A DNA stretch of 32,774 nt from an uncultured Alphaproteobacteria bacterium (GTDB lineage Bacteria > Pseudomonadota > Alphaproteobacteria > UBA7887): the NCBI GenBank assembly GCA_902562525.1, contig CACETT010000012.1, positions 1 to 32,774 on the forward strand. The letters are read 5' to 3'. This document shows positions 865 through 31,181 of this stretch, in pieces. Both the position numbers and the translations under genes were made by a program. The notes below the pieces were generated by a model. The model saw only the letters and a program-made list of their open reading frames with translations, did no database searches and was not told the DNA's origin. Position 1 is the first letter of the stretch; every line of letters starts with the position of its first letter.

Positions 865-2808
865 TCAAAATCCAAACATGTGGTCCAGGGAAAATGCGCC
901 TTTCGGATGAACCAATGTATGGTAACCAAAAAGACGACACCCCAGATCCCGAACCGAGATATACCCGGAAAAATTTTTATTCTCTGCCAGGGCAGTTTTG
1001 AAAATCTCACGAACACTTAGCATTCGCGAGCCCCCGCAAGGAATCTGCAAAGGGTGACTAGCGACTTCCCGCCCTAACCCGTCTTTAAGACTTAAAATCG
1101 TGTTCGATTTTTCAAGCCAAGGCATTGAGGCAGGATAAATTAAATGAAGCAATGTATCTAATTTTGGATGACCGAGCCTGACATATAGCCGCGTACTAAG
1201 GCCTGGGGGCTTGCCTGTATATGACTGAGGCTGGTCTTTATAAGTTACCGGAATATTAAACATATGCGACCCAAAACTAGTCTCTGCCTGATGCCCCGAG
1301 ACTGTATTTCGGTAGTGAAATATAGCATGCATCCACCCATCGGCCTCGGAACCATTGGCCAGGTCATAGGTCAACTCCATATGTCCACAGTGTTCAAGCA
1401 ACTCACTATTGGCCGACCTTAGACACTCAGTTACAGATATTGGAATGGCCTCCCCCCTATCCAAAAACCTTAGAGGAAAGGACTCCATTTCAATACCCTC
1501 CCTGTCAAAAACAGTCAGATTAGCCGCCAACTCATTCTGAGTTGTGGCCATTGGAGTCCAAAGAACTTTGGAGTCATATTGGTTGGCCGGAAGAATTGGC
1601 GCTGCAAGGATATAGCCCTTGCCAACAAGGCCCTTTAGCCCGAGAAGATTTTGATCAGGGATTAAGTCGGTTCGTTCAACATTAACATGAGCAATCCGCC
1701 TATTCTCTTTGGAGTCAATCACCTCATACCTTGGCCTAACAAGATACTTCCCCGCGTGAAGCTCCAACTGGCTCCCCGCCGCCAGCCCTGGCAACAACTC
1801 AGAAATATTGATAGGCATAGTAGCAAAAGGTTCCACAACTCCATCGATCCAATGTAACTCATCTTCGCCCATTACACGCAGGCCGATAGACTGAGGAGGT
1901 ATAGCAACGGGGTGACTGTTTTGTACCCACAGCATTACCTGCTCCCCAGTATTAGGGGTCGGTAACCCAGCATAAACCTCAGCCGGCCAAGCATTAGCAT
2001 CATGAGTACAGGAAAGAGTCCCATATCCATCATTAAATATGTCCAAGACATACTTTAGTTGGTCATGGCCCGCTATCCCAATTGCATGAATGAAGAGTTG
2101 CCCAGTGAAGGGGCCAAGATTAAACCGCCTCCGAACATCACTACTTTCAATAACAATAGCTGCACTTTGGTCCGGCAATTCCTTCTCCCAAGCAGCAACC
2201 GCAACCCCTGCATCATCAAATAGACAAAGCCAAAGTTTTACCGCTCGCGCCCCATGGCCGTGCCAATAATTGACTGTAGTAAGGGTAGTATGGAGATCAC
2301 CAACATCACGAAAAAAAGCAAAATTCGTTGCGAAGTTTATTGGCGATAGATACTCCCTATTAAGAGTGATGAAGTCATCCGGTAACCGTAAACTGTCAAG
2401 GGTAAGGCATGTTACATTAGCCGGGAGAAGCCCATCAATCTGGGTCAAAAACCTATCAGCATCAAACATTAACACAAAAAGCAACTCCGCTTTTGAACGG
2501 GAAAGCAGGGATATAGGTTGAGCTGTCATACCCCGCCGGATACAACCCACATCATTAATGTCTTGGACATACAAATCCAAAAAATTAATGTCGTTGACAT
2601 CGTTAAAGACTGCAAAAGCGTCAAGGACATCAAATGGGTCGTATACGGCCACTTCTCTGGCAGCCCGCAAATTTTCCAGCAATCTAGCTGCTAAAATTGG
2701 CACCAATGGATGGCCAAGAGCTTTAAAAAGACAATCGGGGCCATCTTTGTTGCTGAATGTTTTAATAGGCAAAGACACGCTTACATCACACCTGCTCAGC
2801 GTTTTCAT
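865..2808 (-). CDS. Uncharacterised protein with two repeated beta-rich modules
   Basis: I do not recognise this 647-residue protein. Residues 30-145 alternate hydrophobic strands and helices in a Rossmann-like way (V-A-V-Y-D-P, then D-L-Y-V-Q-D, then L-L-F-V-L-M-F-D). The rest looks like two copies of a module of about 200 residues, at roughly 156-364 and 406-634. Each copy has an F-D-x-x-G turn (197 and 434), and about 102-113 residues later an aromatic/hydrophobic strand ending in H-P (299 and 547). No signal peptide or membrane segment is visible. The ATG at 2808 was chosen because it overlaps the upstream ELM1-like gene by 23 bases; the in-frame ATG at 2850 would overlap by 65, and neither has a good ribosome site. 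The overlap suggests translational coupling, hence a shared process, possibly glycan-related. That function is inference only. Confidence 0.75.
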   Translation of the reverse strand: MKTLSRCDVSVSLPIKTFSNKDGPDCLFKALGHPLVPILAARLLENLRAAREVAVYDPFDVLDAFAVFNDVNDINFLDLYVQDINDVGCIRRGMTAQPISLLSRSKAELLFVLMFDADRFLTQIDGLLPANVTCLTLDSLRLPDDFITLNREYLSPINFATNFAFFRDVGDLHTTLTTVNYWHGHGARAVKLWLCLFDDAGVAVAAWEKELPDQSAAIVIESSDVRRRFNLGPFTGQLFIHAIGIAGHDQLKYVLDIFNDGYGTLSCTHDANAWPAEVYAGLPTPNTGEQVMLWVQNSHPVAIPPQSIGLRVMGEDELHWIDGVVEPFATMPINISELLPGLAAGSQLELHAGKYLVRPRYEVIDSKENRRIAHVNVERTDLIPDQNLLGLKGLVGKGYILAAPILPANQYDSKVLWTPMATTQNELAANLTVFDREGIEMESFPLRFLDRGEAIPISVTECLRSANSELLEHCGHMELTYDLANGSEADGWMHAIFHYRNTVSGHQAETSFGSHMFNIPVTYKDQPQSYTGKPPGLSTRLYVRLGHPKLDTLLHLIYPASMPWLEKSNTILSLKDGLGREVASHPLQIPCGGSRMLSVREIFKTALAENKNFSGYISVRDLGCRLFGYHTLVHPKGAFSLDHMFGF

Positions 2809-3808
2809 TAGACTCGGAAACGGATAACCCCATTCTTTTTCGGATCTCATTTGAAACTAGATTAGCATCATTAATTGGTGGATAACTCCAATCCAATAAT
2901 GTCTCCGGAAAAGAATTCTCCGGAAGTGGTCGAGCAGCACCGTACTCGAATAAATGCTTGTGCAACCTGTTATGTTTTGCAGCAGTCATGCCAATTGGGG
3001 CATAGATAAACACGGGTCGACCAGTCGCACAAGCCTCCGTACACATGGACATCGAATCTCCTGTAACTATCACGGCATCACTAAGAGCCAGATATCCCAG
3101 ATACGGGTTTGGATTCCTGCTTTCGTGCCAATTAAAGAGTTTTACCTCTCCCTCCAGGCGCTCTGCGAACCTTCGCATAGCAATCGGGTTAGTTCGACGG
3201 CTAGTCGAGACCATAAGGGAACCGCCTAACGACTTTGCCATACTGGAACACCTACGTCCAAAATCACCTGCGATGGCAGAGGAGAAGCTCTTTCGCTTGG
3301 TATCACCGCCTATAAGCACAGCAATACGCGGGCGGCTCAGGCCAATGAGGTCTTCTTTCCAAGAGTCTGAAGCAGTTGCTAACCGACTTACCGTAACATT
3401 GTGCGGGGCGCCAAGCGTCCTGACGATATTCTCGTTAGATCCCATATCGTCGTGGAGGGGTGCCGAGACAAGATCTAGATCCCTAACAGGACGCCCTGGC
3501 CACATTAGCTGGGCCAAAAAGACACTGGCTTGGGATCTTTTTTTAATGTAGCGGGCTACCGCCACGGTCCGACGCCCGGACGCTATTACCAAATTGGGCC
3601 ATGGGGAAGAAATTGTCTCCGCACTCTCTCGAGTGATGTGCAGGATACTGGAGCCCAAAACAATGTTCGGCAACCTTGCCCACTTATTATAAGCAATGCG
3701 TTTGACTTCATACGGCAAGCCTAGAGCGTCGGCCACACCCAAACACTGGCTCACATTACCTGAATATTCGTCAGCCAACACCCAAATAGCTGGATCATCC
3801 AATCCCAT
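2786..3808 (-). CDS. ELM1-like GT-B-fold protein (mitochondrial fission ELM1 family)
   Basis: This 340-residue protein has the features of the bacterial ELM1/DUF1022 family. It opens with W-V-L-A-D-E-Y-S-G-N, followed by an S-G-R-R segment near residue 77, an I-G-G-D segment near 167, and the family's strongest stretch V-T-G-D-S-M-S-M-x-T-E-A near 250-262, then G-R-P-V-F. The last part resembles the donor-binding half of GT-B glycosyltransferases. Plant ELM1 takes part in mitochondrial fission; the bacterial role is unknown, and a sugar-nucleotide or envelope function is only a guess. It follows greA after 50 bases and overlaps the next gene, so it probably belongs to the car-greA transcription unit. 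Family assignment is secure from the motifs; biochemical function is not. Confidence 0.85.
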   Translation of the reverse strand: MGLDDPAIWVLADEYSGNVSQCLGVADALGLPYEVKRIAYNKWARLPNIVLGSSILHITRESAETISSPWPNLVIASGRRTVAVARYIKKRSQASVFLAQLMWPGRPVRDLDLVSAPLHDDMGSNENIVRTLGAPHNVTVSRLATASDSWKEDLIGLSRPRIAVLIGGDTKRKSFSSAIAGDFGRRCSSMAKSLGGSLMVSTSRRTNPIAMRRFAERLEGEVKLFNWHESRNPNPYLGYLALSDAVIVTGDSMSMCTEACATGRPVFIYAPIGMTAAKHNRLHKHLFEYGAARPLPENSFPETLLDWSYPPINDANLVSNEIRKRMGLSVSESNENAEQV

Positions 3809-25958: not shown

Positions 25959-27050
25959 TTACAAAGCAAGATCGGTAGACCGATCGAAAATATGAATTTG
26001 CTCAGTATCAAAGCAGACCTTGGCAGATTGTCCAGGCTGTGGATTTAACTCCGGAGCTACCCGCCCGCACAATGCTTCACCTGCTAGAGAAAAGTAAACC
26101 ATGGTTTCCATACCTAGTGGCTCCACAAAGTCTACGTCTACTGAAAGAGAAACACCATCTCGATCGACTCTTTCTTCCGTTACATGCTCGGGCCGTATTC
26201 CAAGAGTTAAAGGTTTCCCTACATAGGGTCTATACCTCTCAAGGCGTCCAGAGGAAACCGGCAAACTCAGTTCGCTGCCAACCTTGACAACAAGACCTCC
26301 GTCCAATTCACTCAATTCACAATCCAAGAAATTCATAGCCGGTGAGCCTATAAAACCTGCAACAAATCTTGTTCTAGGAGAATGATATAGTTCTCCTGGG
26401 GTACCAACTTGATCAATCAATCCAGCGTTCATAACAACCACCCTATCTGCAAGGGTCATCGCCTCAACCTGATCATGGGTAACGTAGACAGTAGTAGTTT
26501 TCAAATGTTGGTGAACGCGCTTGATTTCTATCCGCATTTGCCCACGAAGCTTCGCATCAAGGTTACTTAACGGCTCATCAAAGAGAAATACTCGTGGATT
26601 CCGGACGATTGCCCGCCCCATTGCTACCCGTTGACGCTGACCCCCAGAAAGCTGCTTGGGCCTTCTGTTCAATAACTCCGTGATACCTAAAACTTCAGCT
26701 GCTTCCTCAACACGCTTTTTGATATCATCCTTAGGATATTTTCTAAGCCGAAGACCAAATGACATATTTTGAAATACTGTCATGTGAGGGTAGAGCGCAT
26801 AATTCTGAAAGACCATTGCAATATCGCGATCTTTTGGAGGAACATCATTAACTAGTTCCCCCCCTATCAGAATCTCGCCTTCCGTGACCTCCTCAAGTCC
26901 CGCGATCATTCGGAGGGTCGTGCTTTTGCCACACCCAGAAGGACCAACCAGAACGACAAATTCATTATTTTTTATTTCGAGATCTATGCCGCTAACCGCC
27001 TCAGTGCGGTCAAACCTTTTATGAAGATTGGTTAAAGTAACGTCTGCCAT
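25959..27050 (-). CDS. Sugar ABC transporter ATP-binding protein (MalK/UgpC type)
   Basis: The 363-residue protein has Walker A G-P-S-G-C-G-K-S-T (36-44), signature L-S-G-G-Q (134-138), Walker B F-L-F-D-E-P (155-160) and switch histidine in V-T-H-D-Q (near 192). A C-terminal TOBE-type regulatory domain (about 240-363, with G-I-R-P-E-H-V) marks the CUT1 sugar importer group. It powers the transporter formed with the two permeases encoded upstream, from which it is separated by six bases. A palindrome covers its last codons. The substrate cannot be read from this subunit. Confidence 0.95.
   Translation of the reverse strand: MADVTLTNLHKRFDRTEAVSGIDLEIKNNEFVVLVGPSGCGKSTTLRMIAGLEEVTEGEILIGGELVNDVPPKDRDIAMVFQNYALYPHMTVFQNMSFGLRLRKYPKDDIKKRVEEAAEVLGITELLNRRPKQLSGGQRQRVAMGRAIVRNPRVFLFDEPLSNLDAKLRGQMRIEIKRVHQHLKTTTVYVTHDQVEAMTLADRVVVMNAGLIDQVGTPGELYHSPRTRFVAGFIGSPAMNFLDCELSELDGGLVVKVGSELSLPVSSGRLERYRPYVGKPLTLGIRPEHVTEERVDRDGVSLSVDVDFVEPLGMETMVYFSLAGEALCGRVAPELNPQPGQSAKVCFDTEQIHIFDRSTDLAL
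25970..25985. repeat. Palindrome at the 3' end of the ABC operon
   Basis: GATCGG (25970-25975) and CCGATC (25980-25985) form a six-pair stem with loop TAGA, inside the last codons of the ATPase gene. On the minus strand it is preceded by ATTTT and followed by TTGCTTTG, a weakly terminator-like context. It may end the ABC operon transcript, or it may be chance in coding sequence. Confidence 0.35.
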
Positions 27051-27056
27051 GTTATA

Positions 27057-27959
27057 TCAACCCTTTGTCGCGCCAGATGTCAGCCCAGCTATATAATAGT
27101 CCATTAAAAACGCATAAAGAATAACAGGGGGAGCAGCAGCCAATAAGGCCCCTGCCATCAACCCACCCCAATGAAATACATCGCCTTTGATTAAGGTAGT
27201 AACGGTCCCAACAGTTAATACCATCTGATTATCACTATATATATAAGCGAGAGGATATAAAAACGATGCCCAAGAAACCGTGAACGCGAAAATCGTTGCT
27301 GCAATCAGGCCAGGCAACGCAACCGGAATAAACACCCTTAACAGCATCTGCATATGATTCGCTCCATCAATCAATGCCGCTTCATCTAACTCCTTGGGTA
27401 TAGAAGCAAAATATCCGATCATAATCCAAGTGCAAAATGGAACAGTCAATGTGGGGTAAACAAGCACCAACACCCAGTACGAATTTAATAAACCCAATCC
27501 ACCAACGATTTTAAATAAAGGAATAAATAGCAACGAATCCGGGACCAGATACACAAGGAAAACGCCAGTCGCTATTACACCTGAGCCCCAAAATCCCAGT
27601 CTGGAAAGAGCATAAGCAGCGAGAACGCTGATCACCATAGTAATTAACACCACAAAAAAGGCGACGATTACCGTATTTTTGAAATATGTGAGAAATGCTG
27701 TCTCGGTCAACAAACTAATGTAGTGCTCGATCGTCAGACCTTGTTCAATAATCCACGGATTTGTAGAAAGATCAGCAATCTCAGCGTTTGTCTTCAACGA
27801 GGTAATCAACATGTAAAAAGGGGGGCACAAAAAGAAAATCACGAACACGATTAGGCACGCATACGAAGCAATCAAAGCCCACTTACGGTCGCTGTTTAAG
27901 CTTGTGTTGTTGCCAATGAGTGCCCCCAGGGCACCCGTGTTACGTGTGCGATTTGTCAT
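27057..27959 (-). CDS. Carbohydrate ABC transporter permease (MalG-like)
   Basis: The 300-residue membrane protein has an N-terminal helix (about 29-51) and five further helices. The coupling loop E-A-A-L-I-D-G-A-N (near 193-201) is the EAA motif of the MalG-type CUT1 permease that contacts the ATPase. Its start overlaps the stop of the other permease gene by four bases (ATGA), and it ends six bases before the ATPase gene. Together they make the membrane channel of the importer. Confidence 0.93.
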   Translation of the reverse strand: MTNRTRNTGALGALIGNNTSLNSDRKWALIASYACLIVFVIFFLCPPFYMLITSLKTNAEIADLSTNPWIIEQGLTIEHYISLLTETAFLTYFKNTVIVAFFVVLITMVISVLAAYALSRLGFWGSGVIATGVFLVYLVPDSLLFIPLFKIVGGLGLLNSYWVLVLVYPTLTVPFCTWIMIGYFASIPKELDEAALIDGANHMQMLLRVFIPVALPGLIAATIFAFTVSWASFLYPLAYIYSDNQMVLTVGTVTTLIKGDVFHWGGLMAGALLAAAPPVILYAFLMDYYIAGLTSGATKG

Positions 27960-28882
27960 ATATTCACCGTACGCTGGCGGACATTGCGGAGGATTATGAA
28001 TGCGAGCACCGCAAGCACAGGGAACATAAATAGGGAAACTGCCGCGCCTAACGGAATATCTCCTGATTCGATCCCCACCCTAAAGGAATATGACGCGAAT
28101 AAATGCGTCGAGTTCCTCGGCCCACCTTGGGTTAGCACCCGCACGATATCGAAGTTAGCAAACGTTACGATTATTGAAAACAACACCGTAATAGAAATGA
28201 TATTCCTCATCATTGGAATGGTCACATGTATCAATTTCTGCCAGGCGCTAGCTCCATCTATAGAAGCCGCCTCATACAAATCCTCAGGGATAGACTTTAA
28301 CGCAGCTAAATACATGATTAGGAAGAATGGAGCACCCACCCAAACATTGACTAATATAATCGAAAACCGCGCCCAAAAAGTATCACTGAGCCAGGGAATA
28401 GCCGACAACCCGAGCGCTTCTAATATCCAATTGAAAGAACTATAAGTTGGCTCAAACAACCACCACCAGCCAAGTGTGGAGAGCGCCGGAGGGATAACCC
28501 AAGGCACGAGCATCATCCCCCGCCACTTACGTTGGCCTTTGCTTGGGATATTATTTACTGCATGTGCAGCTATAAAACCGATAAGAGCCTTAAAAACTAC
28601 GGCAATAAGGGCAAAAGTCACAGATTGCTGAACCACCATCCAAAAGGTTTCTCGTTTAAACAAAAACAGAAAGTTGGAAATCCCCACAAAAGCGGTTTCC
28701 GCCTTGTTTAAAGTCGAGAGATAAATGGAATAAAAAAATGGGTAAGCGACAAGGCAACCGATGATCAGCAACAAGGGCAGCACCATCATGAACGCTATCG
28801 TGGAGCGCTGCCTGAGAAAAATATACAAACTGCCTCGCCGGATTGGTTGCGAAGAGCCCAACGTTTTTGAGCTATCAACCAT
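27956..28882 (-). CDS. Carbohydrate ABC transporter permease (MalF/UgpA-like)
   Basis: The 308-residue protein has six membrane helices, the first at about 31-53. It carries the EAA coupling loop E-A-A-S-I-D-G-A-S (near 209-217), as in the MalF/UgpA group. It begins 23 bases after the binding-protein gene and overlaps the MalG-like gene by four bases. With that subunit and the ATPase it forms the sugar importer. The C-terminal end is short and basic. No unusual feature was seen. Confidence 0.93.
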   Translation of the reverse strand: MVDSSKTLGSSQPIRRGSLYIFLRQRSTIAFMMVLPLLLIIGCLVAYPFFYSIYLSTLNKAETAFVGISNFLFLFKRETFWMVVQQSVTFALIAVVFKALIGFIAAHAVNNIPSKGQRKWRGMMLVPWVIPPALSTLGWWWLFEPTYSSFNWILEALGLSAIPWLSDTFWARFSIILVNVWVGAPFFLIMYLAALKSIPEDLYEAASIDGASAWQKLIHVTIPMMRNIISITVLFSIIVTFANFDIVRVLTQGGPRNSTHLFASYSFRVGIESGDIPLGAAVSLFMFPVLAVLAFIILRNVRQRTVNI

Positions 28883-28905
28883 GAAGCAATCCTATGCTTA
28901 CCATA

Positions 28906-30258
28906 TCAGCCACGCATGATCCCTTCCATCTCGTTCTCTGCCCAGCCAATGGCATCATCAAACGTATCACCACCCTGCGTAACCCGGGCCACCAAATTTG
29001 GCAAGATACCCTGGGCAAAAATTTGTGCCCCGTACTCGGGCGGTGCCGGCACCCCAGCCGTTGTGGGCACCTCGTCTCCACGGATCGGATAATTATAAAG
29101 CACTCCAGATGGAGGCCCAGCGTTTTTCCATAAATCATTACTTTGATAATGGGAAGTGATCAGAGGAATATCAAAGCCCTTTGAGCCAGCAACCAATCGA
29201 TCAACAACGTCCTTCCTGGCCAAATACCTTAGCAAGTCCTTTCCCGCCGAAATATTACTGGAGAAATCCCATATCCCCCAAAAAAATGGGGCACTCGCAC
29301 GGTATCTTCCTTTTGGACCGCGAGGCGAATCATGATGCCAGAGTTGCTCAGCCACAGCTGGCATATCCCTGCTGGAAACTGCCCAAATACTTGGAGGATT
29401 AAATGCAGTGGATCCTGAGCCCGATATCATAAACCGATTGTTACTGGCATCATCCCATGCGTAAACGCTATCCGGCATGTACTGCGTCAGCCGAGAAAGA
29501 TACTCCAAGACCTCGCGAATTTCATCCGAATCAACTGTAATGTCACCAGATGCATCCATAACCTCTGCGCCATAGGCGGCAAACAACGAGCCTAACCACT
29601 GGTTGCCATCAGGAGTTGGGGCGATGGGAGCACCAAATGGCTTGCCAACAGCATGAAGTTTGTGAGCAGCGGTTAGAAAACTGTCATAGGACCAGGCATC
29701 AACCAACTCATGATTGCGCGCGCCGCCTGCCGGGAAAATGGAGGTCAGATCGATGCCGGCATGTTCCCGATACAGGTCAAGCCGTGAGACCGAAGGATAA
29801 CTGAGAGAGCCAGCTGGAGCAGGTGCACCCCTCCAAACCCCATCGAGATGAGCAAAAAACTCTGCGGCGGGACTCAGGGCTCCATGGGCACTAATAATAT
29901 CGTTAACCACATCATCAACCGGCTCAAGACGATGTCGAAACATAGATGGCATCCATTGGGGCACGCAATATACGTCGTGACCTGTCTCTGCACGGGACTC
30001 AGCCTGAGCTGTTAGTAGAAGTTTATTACCAATGGACGTAATAAAATCGATGGTGAGATCCACGCCGTTGGATCCCGCCCACTCCTCGCAAACCTCGCGC
30101 AACACATCATTTGCCCCTGGGACCCAGTGATCCCAAGTACCAATCGCCAGTTTCCCTGCAGAATGGGAAGTTTTAACATACGGCGCAGTAGCCACAACTA
30201 CCCCAAGGGCTCCCATGCCCTGCAAGAATTTGCGTCTTGACCCGTTACGTTGTTGCAC
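28906..30258 (-). CDS. Tat-exported ABC transporter substrate-binding protein
   Basis: The 450-residue protein is the solute receptor of the adjacent importer. Its N-terminus has a twin-arginine signal (S-R-R-K-F-L-Q-G with R8-R9), then a hydrophobic stretch G-A-L-G-V-V-V-A-T-A. It then shows a periplasmic type 1 sugar-binding pattern (I-G-T-W-D-H-W-V-P-G near 38-47, and many aromatic residues). Export in folded form is the expected result of the twin arginines. The GTG at 30258 is used because GGAG lies five bases before it; an upstream in-frame GTG at 30279 lacks such a site. Substrate unknown; sugars or polyols are typical of the group. Confidence 0.88.
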   Translation of the reverse strand: MQQRNGSRRKFLQGMGALGVVVATAPYVKTSHSAGKLAIGTWDHWVPGANDVLREVCEEWAGSNGVDLTIDFITSIGNKLLLTAQAESRAETGHDVYCVPQWMPSMFRHRLEPVDDVVNDIISAHGALSPAAEFFAHLDGVWRGAPAPAGSLSYPSVSRLDLYREHAGIDLTSIFPAGGARNHELVDAWSYDSFLTAAHKLHAVGKPFGAPIAPTPDGNQWLGSLFAAYGAEVMDASGDITVDSDEIREVLEYLSRLTQYMPDSVYAWDDASNNRFMISGSGSTAFNPPSIWAVSSRDMPAVAEQLWHHDSPRGPKGRYRASAPFFWGIWDFSSNISAGKDLLRYLARKDVVDRLVAGSKGFDIPLITSHYQSNDLWKNAGPPSGVLYNYPIRGDEVPTTAGVPAPPEYGAQIFAQGILPNLVARVTQGGDTFDDAIGWAENEMEGIMRG

Positions 30259-30263
30259 TGGCT

Positions 30264-30270
30264 CTCCCCC
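30264..30270 (-). promoter_or_regulatory. Ribosome binding site for the binding-protein gene
   Basis: On the minus strand GGGGGAG occupies 30270-30264, five bases before the GTG at 30258. It decides this start over the GTG at 30279. A possible promoter lies further upstream (TTGACG at 30329-30324, 17 bases, then CAACAT), but its -10 is poor. Confidence 0.6.
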
Positions 30271-30503
30271 CTTAGACACGGTTTCACCAAAAAGCCCCGC
30301 ATGTTGGGCTACGTTTATGATCTCGTCAACAAGTTACGTAATAGATCCTAAATTAAAGACCCATGAGAGCCCTTCGTGGCGCCAGAAGAGTAGAACATCG
30401 ATTATTTCTAGATTAATATGAGGTGGTTCAAAACTATTTCTAAAGTAGGGGTCTTCAATCTGAAACCAAAAAGCCTCCGGGTCCCCTCGATGGAAACAAC
30501 AAC

Positions 30504-31181
30504 ATGGCACACTTTGATTTAGCGCGAAGACTAACGGGCGAACTAATTGGCACTGCATTCCTATTGGCCTGTGTAATTGGCTCTGGGATCATGGGAGAAA
30601 CCTTATCGCCAAACAACGATGGGATCGCGCTGCTTGGCAATACCATTGCTACCGGAGCTATCCTTGTCGTCTTGATTTTGATATTTGGTCCGATTTCTGG
30701 AGCACATTTTAATCCGGCCGTGACATTGTCATTTCTCATTCAGAACCAAATCTCTGTTAGAGAGGCCATCTATTATTGGGTCTGTCAGATAGCAGGGGGA
30801 TTGCTCGGCATGTTGGCCGCCCACTTTATGTTTGAATTACCGCTCTTTCAGATATCAACCAACCTTAGGGCTGGAGAATCCCAATGGCTTGCTGAGGCCA
30901 TAGCTACCTTTGGCCTTGTCGCAACAATCATCGGGTGCTTAAAATTCAAACCTGCAGCGATACCCTATGCGGTAGGCTTATACATAACCGCGGGGTACTG
31001 GTTCACTGCCTCTACATCTTTTGCCAACCCTGCCGTTACCCTTGCCCGTAGCTTGACCAATACCTTTTCTGGGATAGCACCGATCAACACCCCAGGCTTT
31101 ATAATTGCCCAAGTGATTGGCGCCATAGCAGCCACATACTGTTTCCTGTGGTTGTTGAAAGAAAAAAGTGTGCGCGACTAA
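30504..31181 (+). CDS. Aquaporin (MIP) family channel, AqpS-like
   Basis: The 225-residue protein has six membrane helices and the two half-helix motifs N-P-A (70-72, in G-A-H-F-N-P-A-V) and N-P-A (175-177, in T-S-F-A-N-P-A-V). Position 178, where water channels carry the selectivity-filter arginine, is valine. That substitution and the overall sequence (for example S-G-I-M-G-E and Y-W-F-T-A-S-T-S-F-A-N) resemble rhizobial AqpS-type channels, which are linked to arsenic transport. No ars genes are present here, so water, small polyols or metalloids are all possible. The 245 bases upstream, shared with the ABC operon, hold no gene; they contain an AGCCC/GGGCT repeat at 30293-30310. It converges on the racemase gene. 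Confidence 0.93.
   Translation: MAHFDLARRLTGELIGTAFLLACVIGSGIMGETLSPNNDGIALLGNTIATGAILVVLILIFGPISGAHFNPAVTLSFLIQNQISVREAIYYWVCQIAGGLLGMLAAHFMFELPLFQISTNLRAGESQWLAEAIATFGLVATIIGCLKFKPAAIPYAVGLYITAGYWFTASTSFANPAVTLARSLTNTFSGIAPINTPGFIIAQVIGAIAATYCFLWLLKEKSVRD

Follow-up and report, generated by a model that had tools for sequence, protein, structure and literature searches.

A conserved, unnamed four-module protein encoded beside ELM1-family genes and its possible part in LPS inner-core assembly

The stretch of DNA considered here (32,774 nucleotides, hereafter the window; GenBank assembly GCA_902562525.1, contig CACETT010000012.1, from an uncultured alphaproteobacterium) carries on its minus strand, at positions 865-2,808, an open reading frame of 647 residues, and the question raised by this locus is what kind of protein the frame encodes and in which process the protein takes part. 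The frame, as called in an earlier reading made without database searches (the sequence-only reading), was borne out; it stays open upstream to position 2,850 (661 residues), and the plus strand of 865-2,808 holds short frames only, the overlapping ones of at least 60 residues being 73, 83 and 89 residues long. Translation probably starts at the GTG codon at 2,778, ten codons inside the ATG at 2,808, which gives a gene at 865-2,778 (minus strand, stop codon at 865-867) and a protein of 637 residues. The GTG was preferred because the relatives share an N-terminus of the form M-x-L-x-I-x-T-[FY], shortly ahead of a conserved [L/F][F/Y]-K-x-x-x-H-P block, and this common start falls there; in a genus-mate (L002) the GTG is present and no start codon is found at the position of the ATG. 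The upstream neighbour on the same strand (2,786-3,808) encodes a putative glycosyltransferase of the ELM1 family (PF06258, Pfam E-value 3.7e-84), and its stop at 2,786 lies 7 bases before the presumed start of the four-module gene.

Regarding the distribution of the protein, a full-length homologue was found in 23 of 96 genomes of alphaproteobacterial relatives (the window's own genome counted), with one match each and, the window itself excepted, identities of 40-84%. A set of 398 genomes sampled from the phylum gave four full-length homologues (own genome again counted) and one partial match. A scan of genome contigs with a single sequence returned no relatives, whereas a scan with an alignment recovered them: at least 588 stretches matched the pattern and at least 577 encoded a relative, a count in which a single gene may be represented by several stretches; 80 loci were retained. 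The cultured hosts among these loci include Tistlia, Oceanibaculum, Oleisolibacter, Pelagibius, Azospirillum and Marivibrio. MAGs labelled as beta- and gammaproteobacteria form two separate clades with top support in the tree; a few MAG labels (Omnitrophota, Anaerolineae) may reflect binning errors.

The earlier statement that the protein belongs to no named family withstood the database searches. Pfam gave nothing significant (best weak matches with E-values of 0.016-0.2, in one or two of 21 members), NCBIfam gave no match, and the PDB sequences returned chance-level matches only, one per search (E-values 0.94 and 0.6). No match was found in plasmid and phage collections either, and a mobile origin of the gene was rejected on this ground. 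In the available excerpts of the literature on bacterial ELM1 proteins, Kdo hydroxylation, ASRT/ASRAH and the Azospirillum core, nothing was recognised as the four-module protein. The family is real, conserved and unnamed, and it is an unusual gap that 637-residue proteins so conserved, found in 23 of the 96 alphaproteobacterial relatives as well as in beta- and gammaproteobacteria, have a significant match in neither Pfam nor NCBIfam.

An AlphaFold model was built on a 68-row alignment (pLDDT 90.3, pTM 0.91) and module boundaries were read from DSSP; residue numbers of the model (A2) are one lower than those of the 637-residue protein. In the model, a Rossmann domain precedes four beta-sandwich modules, each about 110-130 residues long. 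The predicted Rossmann-like domain comprises A2 residues 38-138 (window positions 2,362-2,664), module A residues 133-262 (1,990-2,379), module B residues 263-372 (1,660-1,989), module C residues 384-512 (1,240-1,626) and module D residues 520-636 (868-1,218), all on the minus strand; module B is the most divergent by profile comparison, and module D ends in a nearly invariant DHMFG(F). The predicted order of elements is the same in every module (strand, turn, strand, strand, short helix, strand, final strands), and module A folded alone gave a pLDDT of 82 and eight strands. Modules D and A match the same stretch of 6nob (chain residues 4-97 and 4-101, respectively; for D with Z 5.9 in the whole-model search), which speaks for one fold shared by the two. 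In all four modules a histidine conserved at 97% or more stands no further than two residues from where a C-terminal strand ends (H259, H364, H505 and H633 in the 637-residue numbering), a pattern that was spotted after the fact.

The sequence-only reading had described two copies of one beta-rich module, each marked by an F-D-x-x-G turn (197 and 434 in the 647-residue numbering) and an H-P (299 and 547). All four landmarks are present, and H-P is also found at 33, 585 and 634. Among 5000 shuffles of the protein, 45 contained two F-D-x-x-G motifs and none the full paired pattern, a result whose surprise is overstated, since the motifs were those that the sequence-only reading had itself picked out. 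Within the family, the D-x-x-G pair proved to be a real feature: the turn of module A (197; 2,206-2,220, minus strand) is complete in 42 of 68 aligned members, with the glycine in 68 and the aspartate in 51, and that of module C (434; 1,495-1,509, minus strand) is complete in 8, usually reading Y-D-x-x-G, with the aspartate in 63 and the glycine in all 68. The H-P pair, in contrast, is a coincidence, since H-P 299 is kept in 54 of the 68 members and H-P 547 (1,165-1,170, minus strand) by chance in the window protein alone (1 of 68); the former follows strand 279-286 in module B and the latter the opening strand of module D (528-533), so the two also occupy different positions in their modules.

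Profile comparison by hhalign gave a probability of only 4-8% for the two halves as earlier proposed. Regarding single modules, the values were 13-27% for A-C, 61-76% for C-D, 7-11% for A-D and less than 1% for A-B, B-C and B-D. The offsets (A-C 14, C-D -5, A-D 9) are mutually consistent (9 = 14 - 5), and in these registers of low probability the D-x-x-G turn falls at the same place in modules A, C and D. In the reversed-sequence controls, module B scored up to 12% against reversed A, and modules C and D up to 10% and 61%, respectively, each against its own reversed sequence, so that the scores of single modules are no better than some of the controls. With profile scores low and reversed controls as high, the repeat rests mainly on the model, and duplication is weakly supported by the profiles themselves. 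The two-fold repeat was rejected for four modules in view of the scores of the halves, the unconserved H-P 547 and the four sandwiches of the model; what stood of the claimed internal duplication is therefore the repeated beta-rich unit, and its two-unit form fell.

Among known structures compared by VIA-align, module A aligned best with TM1070 (1nc7_B), with a Z-score of 9.1 and an rmsd of 2.8 over 101 residues of the 116-residue chain. Three ASRT entries came next (Z 6.5-6.6), level with a carbohydrate-binding module that is unrelated (6.5), and further matches were the N-terminal domain of a GH32 protein (6nob, 6.2) and FlgD (6.2); TM1070 alone stands clear of the unrelated entries. Foldseek on module A alone yielded no match at an E-value of 0.001 or below. 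TM1070 and ASRT define the ASRAH superfamily of predicted sugar binders, the domains of which occur single, as dyads and as tetrads, some of them adjoining glycosyltransferases (PMC2739507, in excerpts). Module A has in common with ASRT/ASRAH (PF07100; TM1070, 1nc7; Anabaena sensory rhodopsin transducer, 2ii7) the eight strands, a D-x-x-G-type turn, an I/L-P strand and the short helix. The four-module protein differs in being fused to a Rossmann domain, in yielding no PF07100 match at an E-value of 1 or below among 21 family members, and in not keeping the signature cysteine: module A reads H-T-R-x-x-x-x-N against S-H-E-x-x-C-x-x-N in ASRT, with the same spacing of histidine and asparagine and no cysteine (for modules B-D this was assessed by eye). 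When profiles were compared with those of PF07100 members, the single modules scored 0.1-1.1% and a merged profile 0.1-9% (reversed merged controls up to 2.4%), and no sequence kinship to ASRT was found per module, with the merged profile or with a tetrad profile. Because this comparison gives no support, module A is said here to resemble an ASRAH-type sandwich in its predicted structure, and membership is not claimed. The carbohydrate-binding role that had been suggested as possible gains from the likeness of module A to the predicted sugar binder TM1070 (Z 9.1), which the sequence profiles do not confirm as kinship. If the resemblance reflects kinship, the range of the ASRAH-type sandwich would come to include a cytoplasmic protein of four modules and a Rossmann domain. 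Two other genomes (loci L121-L124) hold frames of 464 and 511 residues which, judged by eye, seem to contain four tandem ASRAH-like repeats, and PF07100 matches two stretches in each of these two proteins.

The Rossmann-like N-terminal part, also anticipated from the sequence, is upheld as a fold: it superposes on the NAD-binding domain of the redox sensor Rex (3wg9_C; also 3wgh, 2dt5) with a Z-score of 8.4 and an rmsd of 3.5 over 99 residues. This likeness is one of a common fold, Z-scores of 7-8 being usual for models without a clear match, and the domain differs from Rex in that the glycine-rich loop is not kept and the model contains no DNA-binding domain. By eye, the G-x-G-x-x-G loop after strand 1 is absent from the alignment, where the family mostly has V/I/L-A-x-Y-D-P-x-G; nucleotide binding by the domain is uncertain for this reason. 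A weak profile match to the Rossmann part (L108, E-value 4.4e-4) resembles, by eye, a radical-SAM-type protein beside a glycosyltransferase-like gene.

Foldseek searches with the whole model brought up mostly strings of extracellular Ig-like domains in the PDB and mostly uncharacterised or Ig-like viral proteins in BFVD, in both cases with TM-scores of about 0.1. Taken at face value, the top PDB matches would fit a secreted or surface protein of Ig-like repeats, carbohydrate-binding or adhesin-like; the low TM-scores speak against this, as do the enzymes acting in the cytoplasm that are among the gene's neighbours. The highest hydropathy over 19 residues is 1.44 in the window protein (family median 1.28, maximum 1.79), and the scan gave no clear transmembrane segment and no strongly hydrophobic stretch at the N-terminus or elsewhere. 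A surface protein is thus highly improbable; lacking a clear hydrophobic segment, the four-module protein is probably cytoplasmic.

Genomic context, which the sequence-only reading had not covered, carries most of the functional information. ELM1 is present in 76 of the 96 alphaproteobacterial genomes, including all 23 with the four-module gene (Fisher p 0.002, kinship ignored), and in 19 of these 23 the two genes lie no more than 4 kb apart; in the other four they are apart, in two cases on different contigs. The 53 genomes that have ELM1 without the four-module gene show that ELM1 does not need the four-module protein. A second recurrent neighbour is a 2OG/Fe(II) oxygenase, found in 15 of the 96 genomes, namely in 11 of the 23 with the four-module gene and in 4 of the 73 without it (p 1.2e-5, kinship ignored); it belongs to PF13640 (one member scanned), and the H-x-D motif is present in 42 of 42 printed members. 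The window's own family (nine genomes, G000-G008) yielded no oxygenase match at an E-value of 1e-10. Across the 80 loci, ELM1 occurs within 6 kb in 68, the oxygenase in 42 (one of which, in L089, looks like a different one) and either of them in 73. Gene order varies among ELM1-oxygenase-four-module gene, oxygenase-ELM1-four-module gene and oxygenase-four-module gene-ELM1, which argues that the linkage is not just one frozen block. In one locus (L109, 3,630-5,555) ELM1 forms part of an open frame of 642 residues directly upstream of the four-module gene, with an overlap of a few bases; residues 266-622 match ELM1, about 265 residues ahead of them have no Pfam match, and the true start may lie further in.

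Many of the 80 loci cannot be counted as independent, since ELM1 and the four-module gene are in many alphaproteobacterial cases part of an inherited block that also holds carAB, greA or trxB. The neighbourhood might accordingly be no more than inherited gene order, and the protein might have another cytoplasmic role, for example in redox or metabolite sensing; the gene often lies between ELM1 and trxB-lysR within this vertically inherited block, beside trxB and a LysR regulator, and the Rossmann domain resembles Rex. However, ELM1 or the oxygenase is still found in 18 of the 20 loci in which none of carA, carB, greA, trxB and lysR is in view, including 12 of 12 for which 8 kb of upstream sequence can be seen (some of the 20 are short contigs with their wider surroundings unseen). 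The beta- and gammaproteobacterial clades likewise have no trxB or lysR in view, and LPS-type genes are found in several of them. Inherited order as the whole explanation is therefore regarded as improbable.

A link to lipopolysaccharide is suggested by what is reported of ELM1 proteins elsewhere. In Acinetobacter baumannii, the addition of KdoIII and GlcNAcA to Kdo2-lipid A requires the ELM1-family protein 2903 along with LpsB; the authors of that study infer 2903 to be a glycosyltransferase and discuss an assisting role as less likely (PMC10936431, in excerpts). The Acinetobacter outer-core locus encodes five GtrOC proteins that fall in PF06258 (clan CL0113) and are listed as having no known bacterial function (PMC10327509, partial text). 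Proteins of the ELM1/GtrOC1 type (PF06258; A. baumannii 2903) are the genomic and presumed LPS-core partner of the four-module protein, not its relatives, since the four-module protein has no PF06258 match.

By analogy with the Acinetobacter protein needed for assembly of the lipooligosaccharide core, our main reading is that the four-module protein works in the cytoplasm with ELM1 in assembling or modifying the LPS inner core, to which we assign a probability of roughly 55%. Core sugars are added in the cytoplasm. At the inner face of the inner membrane, the four sugar-binding-like sandwiches would bind either the donor sugar or the Kdo/core sugars carried by the lipid A acceptor, and the ELM1 protein, with the oxygenase where present, would then add or modify a residue; the Rossmann domain might bind a nucleotide or sugar-nucleotide or act as a docking part. 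Confidence in any specific chemistry of the four-module protein is low. If this reading holds, the poorly understood bacterial ELM1 proteins would gain a second partner besides LpsB, and inner-core assembly among Rhodospirillales-like bacteria would become testable by a single gene deletion.

Other genes of LPS type were found near the four-module gene. The gene waaA lies near it in four gammaproteobacterial loci (checked with Pfam in L039 and L060), and L112 has two LptF/LptG-family permeases and LptD beside it. A cluster of PAP2 phosphatases is represented in nine loci (one member checked; best NCBIfam match LpxF, E-value 1.6e-37, below the curated cut-off) and a PMT cluster in six (one member checked; best NCBIfam match ArnT, E-value 1.6e-8, likewise below the curated cut-off). 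In L038, L046, L051, L080, L097 and L101 LpxF-like PAP2 and ArnT-like PMT genes occur, mostly in front of the four-module gene; the two kinds of gene possibly form a lipid A modification cluster. The surroundings in L037 include GT4, GT9, a methyltransferase and another transferase, and those in L083 an acyltransferase and an O-antigen ligase. In the tree, the waaA, PAP2, beta/GT and lpt contexts fall in different parts, with the waaA loci in one clade, the PAP2 loci on one side of a branch and the lpt row L021 on a long branch. Judged by this spread, the contexts arose separately a few times at least, though not dozens of times; the four-module gene is linked to LPS-type genes in separate lineages.

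The same neighbourhood could also belong to a protein which is itself an enzyme of the LPS pathway, with the Rossmann domain and sandwiches forming an active site that modifies a core sugar (e.g., by oxidation, hydrolysis or transfer of a small group) and with the invariant histidines as catalytic residues or metal ligands. In a 103-row alignment, 119 positions are conserved at 97% or more, ten of them histidines, with many D, E, R, K and N and a linker P-Q-S-Y (of low pLDDT in the model), and each module has its conserved histidine near a C-terminal strand end, as given above. The invariant histidines include residues 231, 238, 259, 364, 466, 484, 505, 620 and 633. In pairwise comparison the four-module protein is better conserved than ELM1 (99% of 2278 pairs) and than the oxygenase (95% of 820 pairs), whereas it surpasses TrxB, CarB, GreA and LysR of the same loci in just 2, 0, 16 and 26% of pairs, respectively. 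Lying above ELM1 and the oxygenase and below these four, its conservation allows catalysis and does not demand it, and would equally fit a tight protein-protein or sugar-binding role. Moreover, no enzyme fold was matched beyond single domains (transglutaminase, GH2 and NAD kinase with TM-scores of about 0.1 or Z-scores of at most 5.1) and no known catalytic motif was recognised in the protein. An LPS-pathway enzyme in its own right is therefore a rather unlikely alternative, albeit the most probable of those weighed here.

The oxygenase permits a further, tentative extension of the main reading. By comparison with inner-core assembly of the Kdo 3-hydroxylase (KdoO) type, this LPS-linked 2OG/Fe(II) oxygenase, which matches PF13640, is a candidate for hydroxylating a core sugar. 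Ko-containing LPS has been reported from Granulibacter (PMC8036547, in excerpts). In the extended form, ELM1, the oxygenase and the four-module protein would together make up an undescribed module for modification of the LPS inner core, in which the ASRAH-type protein grips the core sugars and its invariant histidines join in the chemistry; such a module would belong to Rhodospirillales-like bacteria and would have been passed also to beta- and gammaproteobacteria. This extension is speculative and its truth doubtful, and if correct it would give a new, possibly enzymatic, role to a sandwich for which only the sensing or binding of sugars has been predicted to date. The main gains of the analysis are the LPS linkage and the ASRAH-like fold.

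Elsewhere in the window, positions 25,959-30,279 (minus strand) hold an ABC transporter block with an ATPase containing a MalK-type OB domain and two permeases. At the position of the binding protein the block has a protein of 457 residues with no significant Pfam match and a weak match to a TAT signal (E-value 0.02). A MIP/aquaporin-family gene lies beside the block on the plus strand (30,504-31,181), and by eye the whole has the appearance of a glycerol uptake locus.
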